Shown: piece after piece, positions 2-58,756 of the stretch | How positions within the stretch are numbered: position 1 is the stretch's first letter | Layout: each line of letters begins with the position of its first letter | Source of the DNA: Rhodohalobacter halophilus | GTDB lineage: Bacteria > Bacteroidota > Rhodothermia > Balneolales > Balneolaceae | Direction: 5' to 3' | DNA: 64,000 nucleotides | NCBI RefSeq assembly: GCF_001715195.1 | Contig: NZ_MDWE01000023.1 | Location: 62,001 to 126,000, forward strand | Notes under the pieces: model-generated | The model's database searches: none | The model's input: only the letters and a program-made list of their open reading frames with translations | Told to the model about the DNA's origin: nothing | Program-made: the position numbers and the translations under genes

Positions 2-412
2 TGGATCATGAATGGCGGTAGCTCCACATTAGACTCCTACGGAGTGAATGACGCGGTGGATATCCCTGAAGCACATCTGGACTTTTACAGACAAACGGAA
101 CTCTATTACGATACTGAGGAGTACTTTTTTGTACATGCCGGTGTCCCGTCTCATCAACCAATACGAGAAACTCTTAAAACAGATGAGTTTAACGATTTCT
201 TTTTATGGGGAAGGGAACATGTCGACTCTTTTGAGACGCCGTGGGAAAAAACTGTCGTGTTTGGGCACACACCGCGGCCGTATCCAATTCAGAAAAAGAA
301 AATGATCGGTATTGACACCGGGTGTGTCTACGAAAAATTGGGTTATGGAAAATTAACTGCTGTTCTGCTACCCGAACGAACTTTTATACAACAAACTTCA
401 CTCGATATTTAG
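2..412 (+). CDS. Metallophosphatase (Ser/Thr phosphatase / ApaH-like), 3' part
   Basis: This is the C-terminal part of a calcineurin-like metallophosphoesterase; the 5' end lies before the window, and the frame is open from base 2. The first residues, WIMNGGSST, match the W-x-x-NGG-x-x-T block of the PPP/ApaH branch. Two further metal-ligand motifs follow: FVHAG (about residue 43 of the visible part) and VVFGHTP (about residue 87), then IGIDTGCVY, which is the typical end of the fold. The N-terminal GDxHG and GDxxDRG motifs are not visible. The family removes phosphate from phosphoproteins or cleaves dinucleoside tetraphosphates; which applies here cannot be told. The ychF start is 11 bases downstream. 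Confidence 0.85.
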   Translation, partial: WIMNGGSSTLDSYGVNDAVDIPEAHLDFYRQTELYYDTEEYFFVHAGVPSHQPIRETLKTDEFNDFFLWGREHVDSFETPWEKTVVFGHTPRPYPIQKKKMIGIDTGCVYEKLGYGKLTAVLLPERTFIQQTSLDI

Positions 413-51657: not shown

Positions 51658-52452
51658 ATGATTATTCTTAAGCGAATTTTACTACTCATCTTTTCTATTC
51701 CCCTTCTATTAAGCATACCTTTGGAAGCCCAGGAAAGACAGGGGCATTACATGCATATCGACTACCTGAATATTGACAGAGAGCAGGAGAGCGAGTTTTT
51801 GCAACAAATAAATTCCACATTTATCCCGATTCAGAAAACTCGAATTGAGGGCGATAATATTGAAAGCTGGTCTGTTTATCGCGTCACCTATCCGGGCTCA
51901 CAAAACTCCTTCTACAACTATGTGGTTATTACCATCAGCAACGAACTATCAAGATTTGAAGATATTCTCGATCAATACGCCGACAATTTTTCCCAACGGG
52001 AGATTCAGCGGATATCCGAGAACTACAGGAAGTTTTTTACACCCAATCATTCTGAACTCTGGAGAATCAGAAACAGTGTAGTAAAAAGCAGCGAATTTAA
52101 CCCAAGCCGATATATTGTCATGAACTATATGAGTGTTGGGCTCGGTTATGAGTATGAATATCAAATGTTTGAAGATGAAATAGCCAGGCCGCTCCATGAA
52201 GCACGTATGGATCGCGATCAAATGAATGGGTGGGAACTGAACGAGCTGATCGTTCCCGGCGGACTCGATTACGGATATAATTTCTCAACTATCGACTATT
52301 TTGATAAGCTGGAACATATCGAGTTTGGTTTTACGGATGAGCTGATTCGCCACGCTCATCCAAATACAAATATCAATGAGTTTTTTGATAATATTTACCG
52401 CACCCGGGAATTGGTAAAACGGGAAGTGTGGGAGCTTGTTGAAGCACTTTGA
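51658..52452 (+). CDS. Secreted protein of unknown function
   Basis: A 264-residue protein with a clear signal peptide (cut near LEAQ, residue 24). The mature part has repeated aromatic-rich stretches with YMHIDYLNIDREQESEFL and YIVMNYMSVGLGYEYEYQMFEDEIARPLHEAR, suggesting two similar alpha/beta repeats of about 100 residues, of the dimeric alpha-beta barrel type. I do not recognise a family. It stands alone, with a perfect ribosome site, and ends 16 bases before the convergent aguA stop. Confidence 0.8.
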   Translation: MIILKRILLLIFSIPLLLSIPLEAQERQGHYMHIDYLNIDREQESEFLQQINSTFIPIQKTRIEGDNIESWSVYRVTYPGSQNSFYNYVVITISNELSRFEDILDQYADNFSQREIQRISENYRKFFTPNHSELWRIRNSVVKSSEFNPSRYIVMNYMSVGLGYEYEYQMFEDEIARPLHEARMDRDQMNGWELNELIVPGGLDYGYNFSTIDYFDKLEHIEFGFTDELIRHAHPNTNINEFFDNIYRTRELVKREVWELVEAL

Positions 52453-53530: not shown

Positions 53531-53694
53531 TGTCTGAAAAATAGTTTTATGGTTAACCCTTCAAAGAAGGCGTTTCAAAATCCTTTCATAATGAATAGGC
53601 CAAAAGTATGAAAATTAAGCGGAAATCCTTTTCATTAATATTTTGTATCCTGAGGCTTCTGCCCGATATTTTCAGGCGCTCCCATACACTGAAT

Positions 53695-54672
53695 ATGAAT
53701 CCTTTTTTGATGAAATCTCTTTCTACCGCGTTTATTGTTTCGATATTTCTCTTAACAATGAGTGTTCAATCTCTGCCGGCGCAAGATACTGGCAGCGGAC
53801 TTGATTTTTTAAATATCGGCCCCTCCTCTTCAATCTTATCGCTTGGTGAAGGAACCTCAGCAGTGCCAACCGGTTCTTCCTCTTTTTACATGAATCCGGC
53901 ACTTCTCTCGTATGAATTAGAATCAGGACTCGATGTAAACTATACACTTTGGATTTCAAATGTGCAGTCTCAATTTGTTGCGGTACATGGTAAAAAAAAT
54001 CGTTTCACATTTGGAGCCGGGGTTTACTCAACCCGATCGGATGATTTTGAAGCCAGAAATCAACCCGGACCCCCATCCGGTTCGTTTTCCATCAGTTACC
54101 TCGCTGTGAGCGGTGGATTATCGTATAAACTCGGACCGGTTTCACTCGGGGCAACCGCACACTACCTTCGAGAGGAGATCTTTCAGCTTCGGGCCAACGG
54201 TTATGCAATCAATCTCGGCAGTGCTGTCAGATTCTTGAATGAAAGAGTTACCCTTGGCTTGAGCTTAAATAATGTTGGCGAAATGGAGGAGCTGGATATC
54301 GAAGAAACCCCTCTCCCTTCGGTGCTGAAAGCCGGACTATCCGCTCGAATGATTGAATTTGTGACACCCGGTGAGAATGACTTTCCGGTGCTGATGACGT
54401 TATTTACAGATTGGACCACTCCGCTGAATAACTATTCCACAGGAGATTTTGCTGCAGAGAACTCTAATGACGGCTACCTAACTTTCGGAACCATCGCGGA
54501 TCTTGCCGGAATTTTTGAATTCAGAGGAGCCTATAAATTTGGGCCAACTGAACGCCCATTTAGTACAGGTCTCGGAATTTCTGTTGAGCCACTGACATTT
54601 AATTACGCGTTTGTCCCATTTTCAACCGGGTATGGATCGGCTCACTCATTTGGTATTCAATACACGTTTTAA
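53695..54672 (+). CDS. PorV/PorQ-like outer-membrane protein
   Basis: A 325-residue protein with a signal peptide (ending SLPAQD) and the N-terminal motif LNIGPSSSILSLGEGTSAVPTGSSSFYMNPALLS, which is the PorV/PorQ (UPF0164-like) signature, followed by alternating strands and a C-terminal Phe (GIQYTF). In type IX secretion systems PorV shuttles cargo to the surface. ATG 53695 is preferred over upstream ATG 53608; 53710 is another option. No other T9SS gene is in the window. It lies 97 bases before the lycopene cyclase. Confidence 0.82.
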   Translation: MNPFLMKSLSTAFIVSIFLLTMSVQSLPAQDTGSGLDFLNIGPSSSILSLGEGTSAVPTGSSSFYMNPALLSYELESGLDVNYTLWISNVQSQFVAVHGKKNRFTFGAGVYSTRSDDFEARNQPGPPSGSFSISYLAVSGGLSYKLGPVSLGATAHYLREEIFQLRANGYAINLGSAVRFLNERVTLGLSLNNVGEMEELDIEETPLPSVLKAGLSARMIEFVTPGENDFPVLMTLFTDWTTPLNNYSTGDFAAENSNDGYLTFGTIADLAGIFEFRGAYKFGPTERPFSTGLGISVEPLTFNYAFVPFSTGYGSAHSFGIQYTF

Positions 54673-54769
54673 ACCCAATTTGAACGGATATGAACTGCGT
54701 TACAGTTTCTGTAAATCAGAACACGCAAAGTCCATCAGCCGGATAACCTCAAATCTCTTTTCATCGAAT

Positions 54770-55960
54770 ATGACAGACAAATCCCAAACCGCTGAGAAGT
54801 TTGATCTGATTATTGCAGGTGCGGGAGCTGCGGGATTAAGTCTGCTCTGGAATCTGATTTCTTCTGATAAGCTGTCAAACCTCAATATTCTTTTAACAGA
54901 CCTTAGTTTTACCCCAAAAAATGATAAAACATGGTGTTTTTGGGATGATGCAAACCTTCCCGAAACCGGAATGATTCACCACTCCTGGAAAGACCTTGAG
55001 GTTCGGGCTATGAATAGGGAAATTCGTGAGCAACTGCAACGGTATGAATATTTCTGTGTCAAAAGTTCGGACTTTACCGAGATGATTTTAAATCGGGCCA
55101 AAAACGATCCACGCGTTACCTTGATAGAGACAAAAATCAACGGATTTCGTTCCACAGATCAAGGAGCCATGATGGAGACCGATTCAGGAGATTTTCATGC
55201 CAATACGATTTTCCAAAGTGTACTCAAACCGCCCGTTACACCTCACACCAGGTCAGACATCAGTCTGAAACAGCACTTTATGGGCTGGGAGATTGAAACC
55301 TCAAAATCCCTTTTTGACCCAAAAAGAGCCATTTTTATGGATTTTGACGTACCTCAAAACAGCGGTGTCACATTTTTCTATGTACTGCCTTTTTCAATCA
55401 ACAGAGCTCTGATTGAGTACACAATGTTCAATGAAGTGTTGCTGACTGCCGAAGAGTATGAAACGGAATTGATTCGATATATAGAACTGCGGTATGGTTT
55501 AGATAAGAATTCATACCGGATCACGCGGAGAGAAGATGGCGTCATTCCAATGGAAGACAGACGCTACCCCGCTCGGCTCTGCCAAAATGTGTACAATATT
55601 GGTACAATGGGAGGTGTGACGAAACCTTCATCCGGTTACGCATTTACACGAATTTTAAAACACTCAAAAGAGATTGCTATTGCGGTAGAGAACGGTTCGC
55701 CAATCCCCGAATCACTGGCGTCATCCTATCGGTTCAGGGTGTACGACATGATGCTCCTCTATCTGCTCAAACACGATCCGGCGATTTCAGTTCAGATTTT
55801 CCACGACCTGTTTTACAAAAACGGGTTTGACAGAATCTTGCACTTTTTGGAGGAGAAGACCCATTTTGGCCAGGAGCTGAAAATCTTCTCCTCAGTGCCC
55901 TACTCACCTTTTTTCAAATCGATCTGGAAGATGAAGCATCGAATATTTTCAGGTGCCTGA
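54770..55960 (+). CDS. crtY: Lycopene beta-cyclase
   Basis: A 396-residue flavoprotein of the CrtY family. The FAD site is DLIIAGAGAAGLSLLWNL (GxGxxG at 17-22); DDANLPETGMIHHSW, MDFDVPQNSGVTFFYVLPFS and ITRREDGVIPMEDRR are cyclase blocks, and TMGGVTKPSSGYAF follows. It closes the end rings of lycopene to beta-ionone rings, making beta-carotene-type pigments. No crtE/B/I gene is in the window. ATG 54770 is preferred because the open frame upstream overlaps the preceding gene. Confidence 0.88.
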   Translation: MTDKSQTAEKFDLIIAGAGAAGLSLLWNLISSDKLSNLNILLTDLSFTPKNDKTWCFWDDANLPETGMIHHSWKDLEVRAMNREIREQLQRYEYFCVKSSDFTEMILNRAKNDPRVTLIETKINGFRSTDQGAMMETDSGDFHANTIFQSVLKPPVTPHTRSDISLKQHFMGWEIETSKSLFDPKRAIFMDFDVPQNSGVTFFYVLPFSINRALIEYTMFNEVLLTAEEYETELIRYIELRYGLDKNSYRITRREDGVIPMEDRRYPARLCQNVYNIGTMGGVTKPSSGYAFTRILKHSKEIAIAVENGSPIPESLASSYRFRVYDMMLLYLLKHDPAISVQIFHDLFYKNGFDRILHFLEEKTHFGQELKIFSSVPYSPFFKSIWKMKHRIFSGA

Positions 55961-56026: not shown

Positions 56027-57826
56027 TTAAGCCGTAACTGCAAAGATTTCGTCCAGTCGTTCTTGCTGCTTTTCAACCGTTGTTCGGATAGACTCCAGAT
56101 TCTCACCCTTGTAGGGTTTTTCTTCTGAAATCTGAAGACAGAGCTCCATTCCCTTATCAAGGTTTCTTCTCATCTTAATCAGCTTTTTCCACTCCTGTTC
56201 ATCTTCATCAATCTGTTCAGACAGCTCTTTGATGTAGTCAACATACATCACCAGCTCCTTTGCAAACATGTGCGGCCGTTTTGAGGGAACCAGAGATTCT
56301 TGCCGTCCGTAAATATGATTGACCATCTCATCAAGCGAATACTGCCGGTCGAACCAAGCTACATTCGGGCCGGGACAAATTGCCTGTCGGCCGTAGGAAG
56401 GCTTCATAATTCCAAGACGAATCAGCGAACCTGTTCCAAGGTTTGTACAGAGACAAGTTTTAGCGAGCACTTTTTTCTTTTCCCGCTCTTTTTTCATCTG
56501 CGGCATGTCGCTATCCTGAATCTGATTCACTTTCAGAATCTGATACTCAGCCGAGGCCGTGCAGATCGGATTTTCTGTAAACTCTGTATTGGATACCAAA
56601 AACCCTTTCGGACATTTAGAGCCGGGTTTGCCTTTGTCGATCAGTTCTTTTGTATGAATTTCAGACCCGGAGCCGCGAATATTGTTAAACGGTACCCCAA
56701 GCGGTGATACTCCACTCAAGTAGAGTTCGCTTTCACCGGCCTCTGCCAGTAAATCGGATGTGAAATCATCTACACACGTTGCTTCCGGTACAAGCAGAAA
56801 TGGGCTTCCCCATCCGGTGCCATCCATTTCAAAGTCATTTAACAGTCGCTGCAACTCGCCGTGGGTTCCGATTCCACCCTGAACCGTAATGCGTGCTTTT
56901 GCAACGTCCGAATCATTTGATGGATAATCCCATCCCCGGGATTCGTAAAACTTTTGAATGAGAGGCTGAAAACTTGCCTGAAGCTGCTCTCTTTTTTCTC
57001 GAAATTCCTGCAGCAAGATCGGTAAAAGGTGTCCGTCGGAGGCAAATGCGTGCCCGCCGCAGTTCAATCCCGATTCAATTCGGAACTCAGCAACTTCCAA
57101 TCCTTTCTTAGCCAGATATTTACCCTGAATCAGGGCTGAACGGAAATCACTTACTTTTAGAATAATCTTCTTTTTGATTTTTCCGGATTGATCTCGGTAG
57201 AAATCTCTGAATTCCGAAAGATAATTATAGAGCCTTGGATTAAACCCGGCTGAGAGAACAACACTCGACTCCAGCTTGCTGTTTGCAAATCCTCTAAGCG
57301 CTGCACTTGCATCGCTGAACTCAGAACTCATCGGTTGGTCATCGTTATCCAGCCGAAGTGCATCCACTTTTGCCATGATGTTAACATCAATAGCTCCCGG
57401 TGTCATTTTATCCGTTAATTCACGGATATAGTGCTCTCGAGACTCTTTGTCACCTAAGGATGAAATGAACTCATAACTTTTCTTTAACGGGTTGCCATCA
57501 GGAAGCAGATTAAAATATCGATCCTTCTGTGAGCCTGTAAAAAGCGGGCTCTCTTTTAGATCTTCAAACTTTTGATTGACAATATCTGACACAGTATCCA
57601 GATACGCTGTAATACGTTCAGCCCTTCCATCCCCGGCAGATCGTGGGATATTTTTATAGGGTATTTGATATTCAGTACTATAGTGCTTCCGAATCTTTTC
57701 ACATAGCAGATCATCGACAATAGAGATGACTGAGTGAATTCCGAGATGAGCAACCCGGATGGGACTGTCTATAGAGTGTCCGGTTCCCATAACCGGAATG
57801 TGGAATAGATGTTGATTGTGAATCAT
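56027..57826 (-). CDS. Nitronate-monooxygenase-like TIM-barrel protein with Cys-rich C-terminus
   Basis: A 599-residue protein I cannot name. The N-terminus HIPVMGTGHSIDSPIRVAHLGIHSVISI looks like the first strand of nitronate monooxygenases/PfaD-type flavoenzymes. ESGLNCGGHAFASDGHLLPIL (251-270) recalls the GGH-x-G FMN motif, and ARITVQGGIGTHGE ... DGTGWGSPFLLVPEATC (311-351) the GGI...G-S-x-FL phosphate-binding block. After about 395 a separate module has Cys405, Cys422, Cys458, Cys460 and Cys484, which could bind iron-sulphur or zinc. A charged coiled tail ends it. It is divergent from the ArsR-rhodanese gene. Confidence 0.6.
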   Translation of the reverse strand: MIHNQHLFHIPVMGTGHSIDSPIRVAHLGIHSVISIVDDLLCEKIRKHYSTEYQIPYKNIPRSAGDGRAERITAYLDTVSDIVNQKFEDLKESPLFTGSQKDRYFNLLPDGNPLKKSYEFISSLGDKESREHYIRELTDKMTPGAIDVNIMAKVDALRLDNDDQPMSSEFSDASAALRGFANSKLESSVVLSAGFNPRLYNYLSEFRDFYRDQSGKIKKKIILKVSDFRSALIQGKYLAKKGLEVAEFRIESGLNCGGHAFASDGHLLPILLQEFREKREQLQASFQPLIQKFYESRGWDYPSNDSDVAKARITVQGGIGTHGELQRLLNDFEMDGTGWGSPFLLVPEATCVDDFTSDLLAEAGESELYLSGVSPLGVPFNNIRGSGSEIHTKELIDKGKPGSKCPKGFLVSNTEFTENPICTASAEYQILKVNQIQDSDMPQMKKEREKKKVLAKTCLCTNLGTGSLIRLGIMKPSYGRQAICPGPNVAWFDRQYSLDEMVNHIYGRQESLVPSKRPHMFAKELVMYVDYIKELSEQIDEDEQEWKKLIKMRRNLDKGMELCLQISEEKPYKGENLESIRTTVEKQQERLDEIFAVTA

Positions 57827-58023: not shown

Positions 58024-58047
58024 TCATTCAATAGTTTTATTGAATGA
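58024..58047. promoter_or_regulatory. 24-bp perfect palindrome, likely ArsR-type operator
   Basis: Ten-base arms TCATTCAATA and TATTGAATGA around GTTT, all matching. ATTCAA/TTGAAT half sites are typical of ArsR/SmtB operators. It lies 20 bases before ATG 58067 of the ArsR-rhodanese gene, the position expected for autorepression. Confidence 0.75.
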
Positions 58048-58066
58048 AGTACAGAGCCTTCCTATC

Positions 58067-58756
58067 ATGTATTCGAACAAAATGAATTTGAGCATGAACA
58101 TTCGAGACTTTAAAACATCACTCTATAAAGAGATGGCCGGAATGATCAAAGCTTTGGACAATCCACGCAGGCTGGAGATCCTGGATTTATTGGCGCAGGG
58201 TCCGGTTCCGGTAGAGTATATTGCCGTAAATACGAACCTTTCTGTTGCAAATGCTTCACAACATCTTCAGGTGCTGAAAAACTCGTATCTGGTTGAGAGT
58301 GAAAGAAGGGGAAAATACAACTACTACAAACTGGCAAATCAGCAGGTATTTAATGCCTGGTGCGCCATTAGACGACTGGGATTCTCACAAAATGAAGAGA
58401 TCTTCGAGTTGTTAGATAGTTTCAGAAAAGAACGTGGGTATCTAAAAACTGTCTCAACAGAAGATTTAATTAAAATGATCAGGGAAGACAGTGTTGTCGT
58501 AATTGATGTACGTCCTGAGGAGGAGTTTAAAAACGGCCATATTGAAAATGCACTCTCCTTTCCCAGAAAGGACCTTCAGCACAGAATGAATGAACTTCCG
58601 TCAGATAGAGAGATCGTAGCTTACTGTCGCGGGCCGCTTTGCGAGATGGCAGATGATGCAGTAGAAATGCTCAATAAAAATGGCTATTCGGCATCCAGAC
58701 TGGAAAAAGGGTATCCCGATTGGGCTGCATCTCAGCATCCAACTCAAAAGGAATAG
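58067..58756 (+). CDS. ArsR-family regulator fused to a rhodanese domain
   Basis: A 229-residue protein. Residues about 12-95 form a winged helix (IKALDNPRRLEILDLLAQGPVPVEYIAVNTNLSVANASQHLQVLKNSYLVESERRGKYNYYKL). A linker leads to a rhodanese domain (about 125-220) with VIDVRPEEEFKNGHI and the active loop YCRGPLCEM. The ArsR metal site (ELCVCD) is absent, so sensing is probably by the rhodanese Cys or a persulphide. ATG 58067 is chosen because the upstream TTG 58040 lies inside the palindrome. It heads the efflux operon. Confidence 0.9.
   Translation: MYSNKMNLSMNIRDFKTSLYKEMAGMIKALDNPRRLEILDLLAQGPVPVEYIAVNTNLSVANASQHLQVLKNSYLVESERRGKYNYYKLANQQVFNAWCAIRRLGFSQNEEIFELLDSFRKERGYLKTVSTEDLIKMIREDSVVVIDVRPEEEFKNGHIENALSFPRKDLQHRMNELPSDREIVAYCRGPLCEMADDAVEMLNKNGYSASRLEKGYPDWAASQHPTQKE

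Follow-up and report, generated by a model that had tools for sequence, protein, structure and literature searches.

Some bacteria put double bonds into fatty acids by means of FabX (PMC8626469). The Helicobacter pylori enzyme is an FMN- and [4Fe-4S]-containing acyl-ACP dehydrogenase/isomerase in which an FMN-binding barrel is combined with a C-terminal [4Fe-4S] subdomain, and in 2021 it was described as the only characterized member of the nitronate monooxygenase (NMO) family with such a cluster (PMC8626469). According to the same account, the catalytic His starts proton removal, FMN takes the electrons, and the cluster stores one of them. The cluster ligands are C300, C304, C308, and C320, and C304 alone among them can be replaced without loss of the whole cluster, which is then partly retained together with most of the FMN; S273 holds the catalytic His, the segment F339-G341 touches FMN, and ACP is contacted by K152, I156, R160, and R164 (PMC8626469). 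For a FabX homologue from Neisseria gonorrhoeae, the published account speaks of reliance on an unknown electron acceptor (PMC11300592).

The gene analyzed here lies in a window of 64,000 nucleotides (i.e., the whole stretch of DNA studied) from Rhodohalobacter halophilus, contig NZ_MDWE01000023.1. The open reading frame (ORF) has an ATG start and encodes, ahead of its stop codon, a protein of 599 residues (P0001; Table 1). A preliminary description, made from the sequence of the window, had recognized an NMO-type barrel followed by a Cys module, and its positions prove exact: the five cysteines are precisely residues 405, 422, 458, 460, and 484, the GGH motif spans residues 257-259, and the GGI...GSPFL block spans residues 317-344. 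On one flank (54611-55960) lies a lycopene cyclase gene, in which the Pfam domain match begins at residue 65 and the ORF start lies ∼50-60 residues earlier, an internal ATG probably being the true start. On the other flank, facing P0001 as had been stated, is a divergent ArsR-rhodanese gene (58040-58756, + strand; PF01022, PF00581), followed by genes for an outer-membrane efflux protein and then an HlyD-type adaptor. Two further ORFs in the window (53608-54672 and 51658-52452; 354 and 264 aa) are without a Pfam match at E<=1e-5.

Neither P0001 nor the 36 members of its family alignment (A1, 36 rows, 42-84% identity to P0001) gave a real match in Pfam or NCBIfam. The NMO model PF03060 failed to match P0001 at E up to 10 and is not among the families listed for the 36 members (25 of 32 shown); in the organism's own genome, its one match is a partial one to a 512-aa frame that we infer to be IMP dehydrogenase, and P0001 is therefore invisible to this model. 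Weak matches to PRK00420 (9/36 members) and Mua (3/36) in NCBIfam and to BAR_2 (4/36) in Pfam were taken as chance. The solved structures were searched with both the P0001 sequence (E up to 10) and the A1 profile, and neither search returned an NMO or FabX.

An AlphaFold2 model of P0001 built with A1 reached a mean pLDDT of 90.2 and a pTM of 0.90. Foldseek matched it to PfaD (first by E-value), FabX, trans-AT enoyl reductases, PA1024/NMO, and FabK. When 1000 chains were re-aligned with VIA-align, H. pylori FabX came out best (7e1q; Z 24.1, rmsd 2.9 over 332 aligned residues, model residues 1..508 on FabX 6..363), with Z 22.1 and rmsd 4.0 over 284 residues for the first FabK row and Z 19.4 for PfaD (4z9r_B). 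Region 372-599 folded alone was modeled less firmly (mean pLDDT 77.8, pTM 0.51); Foldseek found no match for it at E<=0.001 and no FabX fold, and the VIA rows mostly cover the three final helices, matched as a generic bundle with Z up to 10.0, which does not reach the tool's stated background for helical proteins. The absence of FabX from the matches of this lone region is no evidence against FabX kinship.

The relationship emerges when profiles are compared. We aligned A1 with a FabX profile (A2; FabX, its sequence verified against PDB 9lt5_A, plus 27 Desulfobacterota homologues from 27 of the 30 loci found), with seven FabX homologues of the CIC type (A4), with eight NMO/FabK paralogues taken from genomes that bear P0001 homologues (A3), and with PfaD (A5). 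A1 matched A2 with a probability of 96.2 and E 2e-9 over P0001 residues 141-509, at 17% identity and leaving out the first 140 residues of P0001, and it matched A4 with a probability of 94.7 and E 6e-8 at 23% identity; identity to FabX-type profiles is thus just 17-23%. In 40 column shuffles of A2, the best score was 32.6, compared with 74.8 for the real alignment, and for A4 the corresponding values were 27.4 and 66.1. Against the families that the preliminary description had named, the profile check produced no significant match, with E 0.019 over 46 columns for NMO/FabK (A3) and E 0.11 for PfaD (A5, which holds only three near-identical rows). The C-terminal region carries the same signal, since residues 372-599 alone match A4 (E 1e-5, 27% identity) and do not match A3 (E 0.071). 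A single FabX sequence in place of the profile gave a weak match, yet the top score among nine sequences tried. By these sequence comparisons, P0001 is shown here to be homologous to FabX through both the barrel and the Cys module, and the earlier statement that no described enzyme was known with this make-up is not supported: FabX has it. A plain nitronate monooxygenase was rejected, there being no Pfam match and none to the profile of eight NMO/FabK paralogues.

The cysteines can be read one by one from the alignments. Without any forcing, both A2 and A4 pair C405 with C300, C422 with C308, and C458 with C320 of FabX, and in the CIC-type rows, the Cys at position 322 stands opposite C460. 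The exact H. pylori set (C300, C304, C308, C320) is not found: P0001 is without C304 and has a Cys at 322 instead, and its ligand spacing is stretched by an insert relative to FabX. Within A2 itself, C300, C308, and C320 are present in 28/28 rows, C304 is present in 21/28, and the 7 rows without it are exactly those with C322. There are accordingly two ligand types among FabX homologues, C304 (21/28; L120-L142) or C322 (7/28; L143-L149), never both and never neither; in the literature searched on FabX, we came across no account of the CIC type. That loss of C304 leaves a partial cluster fits its being the ligand replaced, and it is the one that evolution might be expected to be able to move. 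The fifth Cys, C484 in the CPGPN motif, falls one to two columns from FabX F339-G341, and column 340 itself is Cys in 11/28 FabX rows. This placement by the FMN segment leads us to predict four ligands plus one Cys near the flavin and not a five-Cys site, such that C405, C422, C458, and C460 would be the [4Fe-4S] ligands and C484 would lie beside FMN, off the cluster. The suggestion in the preliminary description that the module could hold a metal cluster is therefore likely right for the four cysteines that match FabX-type ligands; as a five-Cys metal site, it stands for those four but not for C484, which falls in a segment that touches FMN in FabX.

All five cysteines, together with C256 and GGH, are invariant in the 36/36 homologues of A1, and all five are kept in 109/109 distinct full-length homologues (138 loci with a match, from which 6 truncated or too short proteins were dropped and duplicates merged). 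Given this conservation, the pattern is more than chance, and it removes the possibility, raised at the outset, that the cysteines would vary among orthologues. Within A1, mean conservation peaks at 0.78 in the part of the barrel that surrounds GGH, is 0.63 in the Cys module, and drops to its minimum of 0.47 in the final helices. N149, E251, GGH, GG317-318, and S374 are each found in 109/109 proteins. Of the FMN side-chain contacts of FabX, N99 and E175 are matched by N149 and E251, and T243 aligns with S341 (S or T in 36/36 of A1). The structure prediction bears out the barrel, with FabX as the best match. One FabX contact is not kept: Q240, an FMN contact in 28/28 FabX rows, falls on G338 in P0001. 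The ACP contacts K152/I156/R160/R164 of FabX stand opposite R229/I233/K236/K240, with a one-residue alignment gap inside this helix, and across the 109 proteins R229 is kept in 109, I233 in 103, K236 in 97 (plus 6 with Arg), and K240 in 106 (plus 1 with Arg). A lysine-rich GKIKKK stretch lies just ahead of this ACP-type helix.

Table 1. Features of the P0001 gene and protein, in coordinates of the window
Feature	Position	Strand	Evidence
Whole gene, P0001	56027..57826	-	Homologues in 51/58 relatives and 141/394 phylum genomes
Residues 1-386, NMO/FabX-type TIM barrel, predicted FMN domain	56669..57826	-	AlphaFold2, VIA-align, Foldseek
Insert of residues 40-142 separating barrel strands 2 and 3, mostly helical and longer than in FabX	57401..57709	-	Model secondary structure
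N149, equivalent of FabX FMN ligand N99	57380..57382	-	109/109; A1-A2 alignment
Residues 229-240, positive helix similar to FabX ACP-binding helix alpha-7 (R229, I233, K236, K240)	57107..57142	-	
G257-G258-H259, catalytic-His motif (FabX H182)	57050..57058	-	109/109
S374-P375, start of SPLGVPF; S374 corresponds to FabX S273	56702..56707	-	109/109
Residues 387-510, Cys module homologous to FabX [4Fe-4S] subdomain	56297..56668	-	Profile alignments
C405, predicted cluster ligand (FabX C300)	56612..56614	-	109/109; A2 and A4 alignments
C422, predicted cluster ligand (FabX C308)	56561..56563	-	109/109; A2 and A4 alignments
C458, predicted cluster ligand (FabX C320)	56453..56455	-	109/109; A2 and A4 alignments
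C460, predicted fourth ligand (FabX position 322; replaces C304)	56447..56449	-	109/109; A4 alignment
C484 of ICPGPN, fifth invariant Cys, near FabX FMN-contacting segment F339-G341	56375..56377	-	109/109
Residues 511-599, C-terminal helical bundle, least conserved, not in FabX	56030..56296	-	Models, A1 conservation

On balance, P0001 probably represents an unnamed branch of FabX-type enzymes, larger than FabX itself, that uses FMN and [4Fe-4S] and probably acts on acyl thioesters. The two predicted cofactors are well supported by the homology to FabX. On this basis, FMN would sit in the barrel; H259, backed by S374, would take a proton from the substrate, two electrons would pass from the substrate to FMN, and a [4Fe-4S] cluster on C405, C422, C458, and C460 would take or supply one electron at a time, along what we infer to be the same electron path as in FabX, with C484 beside FMN and not on the cluster. 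The substrate would be dehydrogenated, have its double bond moved, or both, as in FabX, although this part is less certain than the cofactors. Because the positive helix (R229/I233/K236/K240) appears to be kept and the GKIKKK stretch precedes it, we tentatively suggest that the substrate may be a carrier-bound acyl thioester. In FabX, the cluster subdomain occupies the place of the NAD(P)H-binding part of FabK (PMC8626469), and P0001, with its homologous module, therefore probably makes no direct use of NAD(P)H.

The family is widespread. Homologues of near-equal length are present in 51/58 related genomes, in 141/394 genomes sampled from the window's phylum, in 11/297 sampled from the phylum to which a Desulfobacterales carrier belongs, and in 31 loci of the genome contigs searched, where the carriers include Chryseobacterium, Pedobacter cryoconitis, Brumimicrobium, Draconibacterium, and Melioribacteraceae, as well as Desulfaltia, Omnitrophota, and Victivallaceae; the plasmid records searched gave no match. 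Intact copies in the two phylum samples score at E 1.5e-224 or smaller, far above threshold, and the weaker matches there are fragments plus one broken copy. The latter (G147:C1:4371170-4372477) is a second family copy with internal stops in a genome that also has an intact one, and another genome (G199) has two intact copies. LKNA01000015.1, titled Chitinophagaceae bacterium T5-Br10_B2g13 (L031), encodes a protein 84% identical to P0001, and the assignment in its title seems to be mistaken. In a quick tree, 31 proteins fall into two halves with phyla mixed in both: one holds Balneolales, Desulfobacteraceae, Victivallaceae, and one member of the Ignavibacteriales, and the other most Bacteroidota, Melioribacteraceae, Omnitrophota, and Desulfocapsa. 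The family has likely moved between phyla by transfer, although more than one change in the tree is no proof of this. Judged by organism names, it occurs in both aerobes and anaerobes.

Gene context does not decide the function of P0001. Of 70 loci read, 66 have a copy within the gene cluster used; these share no conserved partner gene and no conserved link to fatty-acid genes. Recurrent neighbours are local: a histidine kinase plus a response regulator (in Desulfobacterales, Pedobacter, and G190, among others) and, directly beside the gene in three loci, ABC-3 transporters. Pfam assigned unrelated functions to 20 chosen near neighbours. In a few loci, the gene has near it an Rrf2 regulator, an Fe-S repair protein (ScdA_N plus hemerythrin), or both, and a beta-eliminating lyase lies beside it in three; these scattered cases (L034, L167, L188, L189, L190, L045) are not general. 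The CIC-type FabX loci (L143-L149), judged by their ORFs, show no clear fatty-acid operon either.

In the phylum sample of 394 genomes, 141 carry the P0001 family and 5 carry FabX (E<=1e-35), with no genome carrying both (chance 0.11); in a Desulfobacterota sample of 148, there are 10 carriers and 46 genomes with FabX or FabK (E<=1e-20), again with no overlap (chance 0.02). These probabilities ignore kinship, and the paired samples were taken as the same genomes by their handles, so that the lack of overlap is a weak indication that the P0001 family and FabX are mutually exclusive. FabA above the cut-off is found in 0/26 carriers and a desaturase in 14/26; no desaturase is found in the window's genome (97.8% complete) or in the Desulfobacterota carriers (0/8). 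P0001 as simply the missing unsaturation enzyme was discarded because 14/26 carriers also have a desaturase. The distribution of unsaturation enzymes is compatible with a role in making unsaturated lipids. As a separate observation, Desulfobacterales carriers (L098-L100) also encode a PfaD of 544-546 aa, and two carriers (G430:C65, G517:C18) have FabA-like repeats in a frame of 1869-1913 aa; together, the repeats and PfaD suggest polyunsaturated fatty acid synthases in sulphate reducers.

Four other readings were weighed. P0001 might work in the opposite direction, as a FadH-like reductase that is fed by ferredoxin or a cluster and acts on an activated alkene such as an enoyl or dienoyl thioester. 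FabK, a near fold-relative, is a reductase (PMC8626469), FadH passes electrons from FAD through [4Fe-4S] to FMN (PMC12691678), and an O2-independent direction is plausible given that 8/8 Desulfobacterota carriers tested are without a desaturase. We nevertheless consider this rather unlikely, as FabX, the specific relative, works as a dehydrogenase (PMC8626469) and the 66 loci show no conserved neighbour that is a ferredoxin or another electron-transfer partner. A role in detoxification, with P0001 oxidizing or reducing nitro, sulphur, or electrophilic compounds under the control of the ArsR-rhodanese regulator, the substrate range that the preliminary description had drawn from this neighbour, would suit an NMO-superfamily barrel with a catalytic GGH and the divergent gene arrangement. 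It is improbable, however: the ArsR-rhodanese cluster adjoins a P0001 homologue in only 4/30 loci of relatives (L001, L002, L005, L021; many of the 30 with just ∼1.5 kb of flank), P0001 has no PF03060 match and none of significance to the eight NMO/FabK paralogues, and the constancy across phyla of the core positions checked is more readily reconciled with a housekeeping substrate than with a xenobiotic.

That the cysteines form a zinc, structural, or redox-sensing thiol site and hold no electron-transferring cluster is very improbable; four to five cysteines could in principle bind Zn, but those of P0001 are invariant (109/109) and align one by one with ligands seen in the FabX crystal structure or with the alternative fourth Cys. 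A PfaD-like enoyl reductase that serves a polyketide or polyunsaturated fatty acid synthase in trans is scarcely credible despite PfaD's place among the fold matches (4z9r_B) and its length, likewise greater than that of FabX, since the profile comparison gave no match (E 0.11 against three near-identical rows), no synthase is found among the 20 neighbours given to Pfam, and the Desulfobacterota carriers G430-G432 have a separate PfaD. A resemblance between CGPA..AF of PfaD and CPGPN..WF of P0001 was also noted, and dropped after the profile comparison gave nothing.

We return to P0001 as a probable enzyme of the FabX kind, whose make-up has precedent in FabX. The novelty lies in the branch itself, which is 599 residues long, is covered by no family model, has its ligand set shifted, carries one more invariant Cys, and is widely distributed. 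In the literature searched (on FabX, on NMO/2-nitropropane dioxygenase with iron-sulfur, and on anaerobic unsaturated fatty acids, subscription papers being mostly outside it), we saw no account of a long FabX-like family. It is possible, as a tentative proposal, that this is a widespread FMN/[4Fe-4S] acyl-carrier enzyme with shifted ligands that makes or moves a lipid double bond without direct use of NAD(P)H, that it takes the place of FabX in some sulphate reducers and in Bacteroidota, Balneolia among them, and that the invariant Cys by FMN adds chemistry that FabX lacks. An enzyme of ∼600 residues with a near-unvarying core spans Chryseobacterium, Pedobacter, Balneolales, and sulphate reducers, yet is without a family model, and its homology to FabX comes to light only through profiles. 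If P0001 works like FabX, known lipid-desaturation chemistry would be far wider than annotation shows, and the ligand swap from 304 to 322 would be a natural experiment on which of the cluster ligands matters. With the family in both aerobes and anaerobes, the question of the electron acceptor of FabX-type enzymes becomes testable.

Compared with the known systems, P0001 shares with FabX (HP0773; 7e1q, 9lt5) the NMO-type FMN barrel with its catalytic His, a C-terminal Cys subdomain that follows SPxGxP in the same order with the three essential ligands matched, and, by an alignment with a gap in that helix, the positive positions of the ACP helix. It differs in length (599 aa versus 363 aa), in a long helical insert, an extra segment between ligands 2 and 3, and an additional C-terminal helical bundle, in having its predicted fourth ligand at position 322 in place of 304, and in the loss of Q240. 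The CIC-type homologues from Desulfobacterota (L143-L149) share the C...C...CxC order and SPxGxPF with P0001 at 23% identity, whereas they are only 359-376 aa long, have no long inserts, and are without a counterpart of the CPGPN Cys. FabK and nitronate monooxygenase (PF03060) have the barrel fold, GGH, and the FMN-binding Asn in common with P0001 but no Cys cluster module, and they give no significant profile match. PfaD and the trans-AT enoyl reductases (4z9r, 6lkc, 4cw5) resemble P0001 in the barrel fold and in having extra helical parts, and differ from it in being without a matching Cys cluster module and without a profile match.
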